A stretch of 64,000 nucleotides of DNA from Desulfobacula toluolica Tol2. Its GTDB lineage: Bacteria > Desulfobacterota > Desulfobacteria > Desulfobacterales > Desulfobacteraceae. Position 1 is the first letter of the stretch, and every line of letters starts with the position of its first letter. The stretch lies in contig NC_018645.1 of NCBI RefSeq assembly GCF_000307105.1, positions 4,040,001 to 4,104,000 on the forward strand, in the 5' to 3' direction. Shown in pieces: positions 29,474-33,853 of the stretch. The translations under genes were made by a program, and so were the position numbers. Below the pieces are notes generated by a model that saw nothing but the letters and a program-made list of their open reading frames with translations, searched no databases and was not told where the DNA came from.

Positions 29474-32400
29474 TCAAACTTGCGCTACGTCACCCAAAGC
29501 AACTTCTACGTCGCTGTATCCCGGGAAACCCGTCCCTGCAGGTATAATACGACCCATCACAACATTTTCTTTCAATCCTTTAAGGCCGTCATACTTACCC
29601 TCTATAGCAGCAAGAGTCAGCACTTTTGTTGTTTCCTGGAATGATGCGGCTGAAAGAAAACTATCAGTAGATAATGATGCTTTTGTAATACCAAGAATTA
29701 ACGGCTCCCCTTTTGCGGTTTCACCACCCATACCGGCTACTTCCCGATTGACTTCTGCAAAATGAATCCTGTCGACCTGTTCATCCGGAATAAAGTTGGT
29801 ATCACCTGTCTCAATGACCTTTACCCGTCTCATCATCTGACGGATAACCACCTCAATATGTTTGTCATTAATCCTTACACCCTGAAGCCTGTAAACCTCC
29901 TGCACCTCGTCCACCAGATATTTTGCCAAAGCAACTTCTCCCTTGATGTTCATAATATCCTGGGGATTTGCACTTCCGGCAATCAGCGGATCACCCGCCT
30001 TTACATAATCACCATCATAGACCGTAACATGTTGACCTTTTGGAATGGCGTATTCTTTCTTTCCTCCAACATCCGTCGGGGTGATCGTGACTTTCTGCCT
30101 TCCCTTTGTACCTTTGGACACCAAGACATATCCGTCAATCTCAGTCAGCATACCCGGATCTTTTGGTTTTCTGACTTCAAACAATTCGGCAACTCTTGGA
30201 AGCCCACCGGTAATGTCCTTTGTTTTTGTGGTCGCCCTGGGCAATTTTGCAATTACATCCCCCGCCATAATCTGTTCGTCTTCTTCAACCGTAAGAATGG
30301 CATTCACAGGCAAATAATATCTGGCAGAAGTCTTGGACTTGGGAAGCTTAACCGCTTTTCCCTCTTTGTCCTTAATGGTAATTCTGGGACGAATCTCACT
30401 ATCTTTCCCTTCTGTGATTGTACGGGAAACTTTTCCGGTTACAGGGTCGATTTGTTCTTGAACCGTGTTTCCGACCTCTATGTCGGCAAATCTAACACGA
30501 CCGGATACTTCCGTGATAATCGGCGTGGTAAACGGATCCCATGTGGCGATCACATCCCCTGGTTGGACTTGCTGACCATCTTTAAGATGAAGGGTTGCAC
30601 CATAAATAACCGTCTCTTTAGCTCTTTCACGCCCTTCTTCTCCAACAATGTTAATACCGGCACCTTTCCGGTTCATTACTATTACTTCATTTTCAGCAGA
30701 AATTACCGTCTGGATATCTTCATTGTATTTCAGTATACCTCCAACCCTGGCCTTGATTTCCGCAACCTCTACCTTTCTTGAAGCAGTACCACCAATATGG
30801 AAGGTTCTCATGGTCAACTGAGTTCCAGGTTCACCAATGGACTGAGCCGCAACAATACCAATGGCTTGACCGATTTCAACAGTTACACCATGGGCAAGAT
30901 CCCTTCCGTAGCACCTGGAACAAACACCATTTTTTGAATTACACGTCAGAACGGAACGAATTTTAACTTTCTGAACTCCGGCTTCTTCTATTCTTTTGAC
31001 ATGGCTTTCCTCAAGTTCGGTGTCCACGCCAACAATAAATTCATCCGAGTAAGGATCCCGGATATCTTCCTGAGTCACCCTTCCAAGGATTCTCTCGCCA
31101 AGGGTTTGAATAATTTCCCCCCCCTCGTACAATGCTTCAACCTCAATACCATTAATAGTACCGCAATCAATTTCAACAATGGTACAGTCCTGACCCACAT
31201 CAGCCAGACGTCTTGTAAGATATCCAGAGTTTGCGGTCTTCAAGGCCGTATCAGCCAATCCCTTGCGCGCACCATGTGTTGAAATAAAATACTGCAGTAC
31301 GGACAGGCCTTCCCGGAAACAGGCGGTAATCGGATTTTCAATAATCTCACCGGACGGTTTGGCCATCAAACCCCTCATCCCTGCCAGCTGACGCATCTGA
31401 TCCTTACTGCCTCGAGCCCCGGAGTCAGCCATGACATACACTGCATTATAATCTTCAGGTGACCCGTCAATCTTTCCGCGTGTCGGATTTTTCATGACTT
31501 CCATCATGGCATTGGCAATATCATCCGTTGCCTGAGCCCAGATATCGACCACCTTATTATACTTTTCACCCTGAGTAATCAATCCTTCGGAATACTGATT
31601 TTTTATATCTTCAATATTTTTTTCTGATTTGGCAATAATTTCCCATTTTTCATCCGGGATAATCATATCGTCTATACAAATTGACAAACCTCCCAGAGTC
31701 GAATATTTATACCCTATATCCTTGAGCCGATCAGAAAGAATAACGGTTTCCTTTAACCCGATATTACGGTATGCATAGTCGATCAGTTTAACAATAGAAG
31801 ACTTGTCCATAAGCTTGTTAACAAGATTGAAGGGCAAAGTGGTCTCTCGTTCATCCACTTTAAATATGGTATAATAATTCCCCACTTTTCTGACATCCGT
31901 AAACTGACCCTCTTTGAGACCATAGAATTGTTCAACAACAATCTCCGACACCTGAAATATATTTTTAAATTCCTTTCTGGTAAGAAGACCTGTTTTTCCT
32001 TTGGTCTTTTTAATCTCATCGTCAGAATATTTTTTTAAAACCTTATCAAAATCATTGCCGGCTTTTAATTCTTCCATTGCGGCTTCAGCATCTTCCAGGG
32101 TTTGGGTTCTGATCCTGCTCAATGACAAAAGCGTATCACCTGGAATGGATTCCCAAAGAAGAATTCGACCCGTTGTGGTATCATACATTTCACCATCAAT
32201 TCGAACTTTAATTTTGGCATGAAGCGAAAGTTCCCCTGAATCAAACGCATATCTTACTTCTTCAATACTTGAAAAACTAACCCCAGAACCTTTTTGATTC
32301 TGCACGGCTCGAGTCATATAATAAATACCCAGCACAATATCCTGGGTCGGTACTATAATCGGCTGACCATTTGCAGGAGAAAGAATATTGTTTGTAGACA

Positions 32401-33853
32401 GCATCATAATCCTTGCCTCAAGCTGAGACTCAAGGGAAAGTGGCACATGAACCGCCATCTGATCACCATCAAAGTCTGCATTAAATGCAGGACAAACCAA
32501 TGGATGAAGCTGAATGGCTTTCCCTTCGATCAGCACAGGCTCAAATGCCTGAAACCCGAGACGATGGAGTGTGGGTGCGCGGTTGAGCATCACCGGATAT
32601 TCTTTTACAACAGATTCAAGTGCATCCCAAACCTCGGTCTCCTCACGTTCAACCATTTTTTTAGCACTTTTAACCGTTGAAACAAGGCCTTTTTGTTCAA
32701 GATAATTATAAATAAAAGGCTTAAACAGCTCCAGAGCCATCTTTTTAGGGATACCGCATTGATGAAGCCGCAGTTCAGAACCAACTGTAATAACGGTACG
32801 ACCGGAGTAATCCACACGCTTGCCAAGCAGATTCTGTCTGAACCTGCCCTGTTTTCCTTTTAATGTGTCACTTAAAGACTTTAACGGCCGCTTATTGGTC
32901 CCGGTCACCACCCTTCCGTGACGACCATTATCAAACAGCACATCTACGGCTTCCTGAAGCATCCTTTTTTCATTTCTGACAATGATATCAGGTGCATTAA
33001 GGTCTACCAATCTTTTCAGACGGTTGTTTCTGTTTAATACCCTGCGATACAAGTCATTTAAATCAGATGTCGCAAACCGCCCACCTTCAAGAGGCACAAG
33101 CGGCCTTAAATCCGGCGGCAAAATGGGACAGGCCGTCAAAATCATCCGTGTGGGCTCAATCCCCGAGGTCAAAAATGCATCAATAACTTTAAGGCGCTTG
33201 GCCATTTTTTGTTTCTTGGCAACGGATTTGGTCAGGCTGATCTCTTCTTTAAGTTCATCATGAACCTCTTGAAGGTTAATATCTTCGAGCAACTTTAAAA
33301 TGGCTTCTGCACCAATACCAGCCTCGAAGTCATCACCAAAAGTTTCCACAGCCTCATAATATTGATCATCTGACAGAAGTTGAAGTTTTTTCAAACCCGT
33401 ATCTTTGGGATCAATCACAAGATAGGAGTCAAAATAAAGAACTTTTTCAAGATTTTTTAATGTCAAATCAAGAACATTGCCTATTTTGCTGGGAAGACTT
33501 TTCAAAAACCAGATGTGAGACACCGGAGAAGCAAGTTCGATATGTGCCATCCTCTCTCGCCGCACTTTGGACTGAATTACTTCAACACCGCATTTTTCAC
33601 ACACAACCCCGCGATGTTTCATACGTTTGTATTTACCGCAATTGCACTCGTAATCCTTGGTAGGACCGAATACCTTTGCACAAAAAAGTCCGTCTCTTTC
33701 CGGCTTGAATGTCCGGTAATTTATGGTTTCCGGTTTTTTGATTTCACCATGAGACCACTCTCTAATCTGGTCTGAAGATGCAAGGGTTATTTGAACGCCC
33801 TTATAAATCTTAGGATCTTTTGGTTTTGCGAAGAAATCGTATATATTATCCAA
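29474..33853 (-). CDS. rpoC: RNA polymerase subunit beta' with inserted parvulin-like domain
   Basis: Beta' subunit, 1,459 residues. The N-terminal zinc site is CNCGKYK with VCEKCGV, the catalytic metal loop is [16 protein letters not shown], the bridge-helix and trigger-loop region contains [20 protein letters not shown], and the second zinc site lies in [17 protein letters not shown]. Between P571 (LLWESIP) and L673 (LPFNLVN), where the usual protein has about two residues, about 100 residues are inserted; they look like a PpiC/parvulin domain (separate entry). The rest aligns with ordinary beta'. The gene starts ten bases after rpoB, with ATG 33853. Confidence 0.97.
31838..32140 (-). other. 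Parvulin (PpiC)-like domain inserted in RpoC, residues 572-672
   Basis: This in-frame segment reads like a rotamase domain of the SurA/PrsA kind: [20 protein letters not shown] and KKYSDDE match the family pattern of an amphipathic helix, a Gly and YSxD; then [27 protein letters not shown] and [12 protein letters not shown] match the remaining strands. The two histidines of active parvulins are changed: the first strand has LSRIRTQT instead of the xSHIL pattern, and the last has NYY instead of GYH. A scaffold or binding role is therefore more likely than catalysis. The homology is judged by eye. Confidence 0.75.

Follow-up and report, generated by a model that had tools for sequence, protein, structure and literature searches.

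What are the roughly 100 additional residues that interrupt the RNA polymerase beta' subunit of Desulfobacula toluolica Tol2, and what could they do in the core enzyme? The gene lies in a 64,000-nucleotide stretch of contig NC_018645.1, called the window in this text, where we could delimit the following features:

29474..33853, minus strand: rpoC, RNA polymerase beta' subunit, 1459 aa (NCBIfam TIGR02386, 1718.5 bits, and open reading frame)
31838..32140, minus strand: parvulin-fold insert, RpoC residues 572-672 (Pfam, AlphaFold2, Foldseek and VIA-align)

The apparent start codon of rpoC is TTG (window 33851-33853). The RpoC of the window places 101 residues between P571 and L673; most relatives lacking the insert have 2 there, so the net gain is 99. 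The initial annotation had spoken of about 100 extra residues against about two in ordinary beta', which is borne out with exact coordinates. The wider region from TTxGR to MDK comprises 126 residues in the window, compared with 27 in 27 of the 29 RpoCs examined from outside the class; the remaining two have 40 and 41. A lineage-specific beta' insert is one of more than 40 residues that occurs in one lineage and is missing from homologous beta' elsewhere; by its 99 net residues and its distribution within the phylum, the stretch is of this kind.

A query made of the insert and its flanks matched the window's own genome at a single locus, making this the sole beta' found there. At 0.37-0.39, the GC content of the insert region falls towards the lower end of the rpoC range (0.34-0.50), and the stretches flanking the insert are equally low. 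Recent foreign DNA was rejected as an explanation, since the neighbouring rpoC stretches are as poor in GC and the insert is found order-wide. A local oddity or an assembly error was rejected as well, given that the insert occurs in 17 of the 23 genus genomes searched (including the window's own; the other six had no match at E 0.001) and throughout the order.

Searched in isolation, the insert scored above cut-off with PF13145 (34.3 bits, E 4.7e-8, cut-off 27) and PF00639 (32.3 bits, E 2e-7, cut-off 21.7) and slightly below it with PF13616 (22.0 against 22.5 bits). When the whole RpoC protein was searched, PF13145 was still above its cut-off (28.9 bits), PF13616 was below (17.3 bits) and PF00639 was absent from the match list. 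The AlphaFold2 model of the insert (md74ae2d6c726) has a pLDDT of 80.9, with the final 9 residues below 50, and its predicted fold is beta-alpha3-beta-alpha-beta2, as in parvulins. Using this model, Foldseek gave 127 matches, of which the 50 listed are all parvulin-type, as are all 50 entries listed by VIA-align. The titles name PPIase, parvulin, PrsA, SurA, Pin1 and PpiD chains. Further chains (LIC12922, PEB4, Cell Binding Factor 2 and YacD) we take to be SurA-like or PPIases. No sandwich-barrel hybrid (HABAS) or BEAN fold was among the listed Foldseek and VIA-align rows, and parvulins head both lists. The parvulin identity suggested earlier from the letters alone has thus passed its check by profile and structure prediction, with two profiles above cut-off and a parvulin fold modelled, and we consider it practically certain that the insert is a parvulin domain of the PpiC/PrsA/SurA type in beta'.

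The window's genome also harbors a 97-aa stand-alone frame (G000:C1:3423595-3423747) that matches the insert profile (E 6.1e-5). Judging by this match, it is possibly a small PpiC-like parvulin.

A profile of flank and insert was run on 291 genomes of the class, all rows being from the window's own genome or the same genus, family or order. It matched 256 of them at 4.3e-49 or better, like insert-bearing RpoCs, and part of these strong matches was checked residue by residue. Three genomes (G157, G192, G283) gave partial matches running into the insert, and eight RpoCs that were read have an empty site (G027, G050, G070, G098, G142, G190, G250, G290). The remaining 24 genomes showed no match, or nothing better than 3.8e-10; in these we assume that the assembly lacks rpoC or truncates it. 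Outside the class, a flank profile was applied to 30 genomes of the same phylum and RpoC was obtained in 29. The initial annotation had asked how far the insert extends across Desulfobacterota RpoCs, and the answer is about 259 of 267 readable genomes in the order and none of the 29 RpoCs read outside the class. A phylum-wide search with a further profile (A2) covered 20 listed genomes of the order and 374 others, 26 of which were not singly listed. The insert was found in 19 of the 20. Among the matches listed for the 374 others (none weaker than 3.7e-9) there was no RpoC-sized frame; these matches outside the order are stand-alone frames of 227-682 aa. The parvulin insert in the core RNA polymerase is real and order-wide, not a quirk of the window's genome.

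Some individual records deserve mention. The nearest named records, among the best 80 of 414 matches, include several Desulfobacula MAGs. One record titled Gammaproteobacteria, JAAEMR010000215.1 (L070), contains an rpoC stretch that is 84% like that of the window and carries the insert; the title is probably wrong. Two inserts of relatives are enlarged: in L165 (genome G044) the first domain half is longer by about 27 residues, and L187 (genome G053) contains an extra Ser/Gly-rich segment. In another relative, a parvulin match lies within an open frame of 3878 aa (L241, G202:C1:1679233-1679469).

For the history of the insert, a beta' tree of 108 rows was computed with the insert columns excluded and SH-aLRT as sole support; it does not resolve 54 of its 105 inner branches. 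The order forms one side of a branch (SH-aLRT 99). Its base comprises family f47, which has the insert, and families f6 and f55, whose empty site of 27 residues is like that of the outgroups. Other insert-less rows are placed among insert bearers: G050 is nested within f18 (99 and 93), three rows of f32 group with f12, f7 and f54 at 83, and G142 (f48) lies in a fork of 85. All five have 31-33 residues at the site instead of 27, so that each of these three lineages carries a scar of 4-6 residues. G050 retains both borders of its sisters' insert, IMPRDNI followed by KRPEIPF. The tree requires at least five changes of presence, gain and loss being inseparable by the tree alone; we read f6 and f55 as never having had the insert and the other insert-less lineages as at least three losses. 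A second tree, of 55 inserts drawn from as many families and 25 stand-alone parvulin domains (23 from 12 genomes, and 2 PrsA), unites the inserts in a single clade with bootstrap/SH-aLRT values of 100/97; its columns are few and the bootstrap had not settled. From the single insert clade and the scarred insert-less lineages among bearers, we infer that the domain entered beta' once, early in the evolution of the order, and was lost at least three times afterwards. The idea that a parvulin domain was captured by the core RNA polymerase had been raised before; profile, predicted fold and the one-clade insert tree agree on it. The clean losses indicate that the domain is dispensable.

Where it is present, the insert is under purifying selection. 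Among the 17 rows of the genus, its dN/dS averaged over pairs is 0.06 (from 78 of 136 pairs), against 0.037 and 0.039 for the two flanks (120 and 116 pairs), 0.044 for RpoC residues 901-990 (66 pairs) and 0.021 for the N-terminal part, residues 61-330 (103 pairs). These values are rough, because dS is saturated at about 1.4 and those pairs for which no dS could be computed are left out.

The active site of a parvulin can be traced in the insert through the following positions:

32114..32116, minus strand: Arg580 codon, place of the first parvulin His (alignment; His in 44/55 family representatives)
32018..32020, minus strand: Asp612 codon, place of the catalytic Cys/Asp (Asp in 4/55, Ser in 30/55)
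31955..31972, minus strand: EFKNIF, residues 628-633 (HMMER alignment to 6vj4 and 6xd8)
31868..31870, minus strand: Thr662 codon, place of the second parvulin His (His in 43/55 families)

F629 and F633 in EFKNIF occupy the places of the Met and Phe of the parvulin substrate pocket. In the MAFFT alignment the pocket columns are displaced by an insertion; the HMMER alignments to 6vj4 and 6xd8 were used for these positions, and that to 1zk6 puts the gap elsewhere. What the pocket Met and Phe and the Cys/Asp do is assumed by analogy with Pin1 and PpiC.

According to the initial annotation, the two histidines were replaced by Arg and Tyr and the domain was probably inactive. The first replacement, Arg580, stands. 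The second residue is Thr662 (YTIF against YHIF), and the Tyr named earlier is the residue just before it. As to inactivity, both histidines are indeed gone in the window and in all 11 rows sampled from its family (f1), but this does not hold for the insert in general, since 41 of the 55 families sampled keep both (39 in every row, 2 mixed). Seven families have one histidine and seven have none, namely f1 and six others. This family count takes all 71 insert rows, while counts with a single row per family come from the 55 representatives. A larger collection of 147 distinct inserts has both histidines in 72; the scan of named records (best 80 of 414 matches) biases this collection towards f1. 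As they are kept in 41 families, the captured parvulin very probably had both originally, and some families would have lost them later. On the beta' tree the His-His state changes at least 14 times while the domain persists; for judging whether the losses of the two histidines go together independently, that tree offers 2 pairs, on starred branches.

Other features of the active site vary differently. The catalytic Cys-or-Asp position is occupied by Asp612 in the window, whereas across the 55 families it is Ser in 30, Ala in 9, Gly in 5 and Asp in 4, which makes Ser, Ala or Gly in 44. At the pocket Met position (F629) there is F in 44 and L in 7 families, at the pocket Phe position (F633) F in 45 and Y in 8, and the combination of Glu/Asp 628, Phe/Leu 629 and Phe/Tyr 633 is present in 48 of 55. 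Residues conserved order-wide are F602, G622, E628, F629, F633 and F664. Three residues before the second His, none of F, Y or W was found among the 54 family rows (of 55) tabulated, and D, G, E, N, K or Q stands there in 50/55; among stand-alone relatives, F or Y occupies this place in 17 of the 24 rows, one ORF entering twice, and we do not take the aromatic to be a feature of every parvulin. In E. coli PpiC, the mutation F81A at the same place (H84 minus 3) abolishes PPIase activity (available part of PMC7353009). The third catalytic position and the aromatic residue, on which the initial annotation did not comment, are thus altered in the majority of families, so that catalysis may be reduced throughout the order for a reason other than the histidines. 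The alignments suggest a domain that has kept its substrate pocket and, mostly, its histidines, with two other catalytic features eroded.

The position of the insert on the enzyme can be given relative to one conserved residue:

31802..31804, minus strand: Lys684 codon, E. coli beta' K598 (alignment; PMC7676912, available part)

RpoC residue 673 aligns with E. coli beta' 587, hence Lys684 (Lys in 108/108 rows) corresponds to K598. In E. coli, a helix begins with K598 and K599 and extends to K615, which belongs to ppGpp Site 1 at the interface with omega, and near-tip residues of DksA lie 6-10 A from K598/K599, as given in the available part of PMC7676912. The insert ends 11 residues before this helix, which links the DksA tip and ppGpp Site 1. 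It lies after the catalytic double-psi-barrel part of beta' and before conserved region E, and it is taken to be at the uD3/uD4 boundary. The best stretches of rpoC1 models end at RpoC 561 and 571, those of rpoC2 models begin at 674 and 678, and the split of the cyanobacterial beta' precedes region E (PMC10802570, available part). The insertion point is the rpoC1/rpoC2 split point. A beta' fragment model was poor overall (pLDDT 63.9, pTM 0.48), and its Foldseek matches do no more than identify it as beta'.

Two RpoCs outside the class, L203 (G438) and L221 (G322), have 13-14 additional residues at the insert site that are unlike the insert, so the site seems to tolerate additions. The residue after Lys684, at the place of E. 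coli K599, is Ser in the window (31799-31801). Within f1, 9 of 11 rows have Ser at this position and 2 have Gly, against Lys in 25 of the 29 RpoCs outside the class. Ser is found there in 10 insert rows, 9 of them f1, and each of the 10 is without at least one histidine.

How might such a domain serve the polymerase? We propose that a parvulin became tethered to the transcription machinery and that its binding pocket was retained as catalysis decayed. It would form a docking module on the polymerase surface, adjoining the start of the K598-K615 helix by which the secondary-channel factor site (DksA tip) is connected with ppGpp Site 1, and would hold stretches, proline-containing or extended, from transcription factors or from the polymerase. 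Candidate partners among the factors would be those of the NusG/Nus type, sigma and secondary-channel factors. There would be little or no catalytic isomerisation, and none at all any more in f1. We infer peptide docking, these partners and any ppGpp/DksA link from the pocket hydrophobics, kept (F/L at F629 in 51/55, F/Y at F633 in 53/55) where Cys/Asp is replaced in 44/55, from the missing aromatic before the second His, whose mutation inactivates PpiC, from the site adjoining the helix, and from the free PpiC of E. coli, which co-purifies NusG, Rho, SuhB and RpoA (PMC7353009, available part). The histidines kept in 41/55 families argue against this proposal, being unexpected if catalysis never mattered, and so do the clean losses of a dispensable domain. 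The scaffold or docking surface of the initial annotation remains plausible; of the readings considered, tethered peptide docking with little or no catalysis is the likeliest, though in our tentative estimate it still falls somewhat short of probable. A more specific form, a prolyl switch or proline-peptide reader built into the core polymerase of one order, seems quite unlikely. Such a reader would be attached along the structural route leading from the secondary channel to ppGpp Site 1, where isomerisation or binding of a proline segment would gate factor binding and the ppGpp/DksA response.

Among the competing explanations, a near-neutral decoration, in which a domain that folds well and does no harm persists at a tolerant insertion point, is somewhat unlikely. 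It would fit the cyanobacterial beta', split in two at the same site (PMC10802570, available part), the unlike additions of 13-14 residues in L203 and L221, and the at least three losses by our reading of the tree, yet the domain is kept in about 259 of 267 readable genomes, its dN/dS is near that of the rest of the subunit, and F602, G622, E628, F629, F633 and F664 are conserved order-wide. Conservation of both histidines in 41/55 families and of the pocket hydrophobics could also reflect a domain that still works as a prolyl isomerase in the majority of the order, a slow proline switch acting on a transcription factor or the polymerase, with activity lost only in some families, the window's included. 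RpoA, RpoB, RpoC and Rho aggregate in E. coli delta-6ppi (PMC7353009, available part), in keeping with this view. However, the replacement of Cys/Asp by Ser, Ala or Gly in 44/55 families, the D, G, E, N, K or Q in 50/55 at the place where F81A inactivates E. coli PpiC, and a His-His state that changes at least 14 times while the domain stays make it unlikely.

The insert could instead act by its position alone, as an allosteric or steric element that alters the access of DksA/Gre or the coupling of ppGpp Site 1 and binds no peptide. This is suggested by its end 11 residues before the K598 helix that runs from the DksA tip to ppGpp Site 1, by Ser or Gly at the K599 position in f1 where 25/29 RpoCs outside the class have Lys, and by the cyanobacterial Si3, which shields the DksA/Gre site at the rim helix (PMC10802570, available part). 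We regard it as distinctly unlikely, because the K599 change and the histidine loss of f1 fall on one part of the tree and are no independent association, and because DksA-type and omega genes are each present in 23/24 genomes, with and without the insert. The same set of 24 genomes, 8 of them insert-less, led us to reject the insert as a replacement of omega or DksA: PF01258 (DksA type) is missing only in G072 and PF01192 (omega) only in G250. Finally, the domain may be a built-in folding aid for beta' or the assembly of the core enzyme. Its relatives PrsA and SurA are titled foldase and chaperone in the PDB, and RNA polymerase subunits aggregate in E. coli delta-6ppi (PMC7353009, available part); lineages that lost the domain nevertheless keep an ordinary RpoC, and this role is very unlikely.

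A chaperone-type domain at a place outside those listed for beta' inserts in PMC11515920, found as one clade with several clean losses, offers natural pairs with and without the insert for testing its effect, such as G049 and G050 in f18. Its place beside the helix from DksA to ppGpp leads to a definite prediction on regulation. The graded loss of catalytic residues would show a folding enzyme becoming something else inside an essential machine. If the prolyl-switch reader were true, it would be a covalent, built-in counterpart of the action of Pin1/Ess1 on RNA polymerase II.

To our knowledge, the function of most inserts in the large RNA polymerase subunits is open. No published description of this insert was found in searches of an open-licence library, which does not prove that it is new. 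The available part of PMC11515920 gives seven places of lineage-specific inserts, none of them given as between uD3 and uD4, and describes mostly sandwich-barrel (HABAS) and some BEAN or sLC folds; its main text contains none of the words rotamase, PPIase, isomerase and parvulin. Like E. coli Si3/beta'i6, Thermus beta'i2 and cyanobacterial Si3, the insert is a large, folded, lineage-confined domain in a conserved beta', but it is a parvulin and sits at a place absent from that list. With the cyanobacterial rpoC1/rpoC2 split it has in common the point of interruption before region E, which is a break into two genes there and an added domain here. With the parvulin domains of PrsA, SurA and PpiC the insert has in common the profile, the beta-alpha3-beta-alpha-beta2 fold and the pocket hydrophobics and, in most of its families, the dual-His motif. 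It differs from them in being embedded in beta', in the Cys/Asp that is mostly Ser, in that no aromatic was seen three residues before the second His, in 5-6 additional residues after the pocket Phe and, in the window, in the loss of both histidines.
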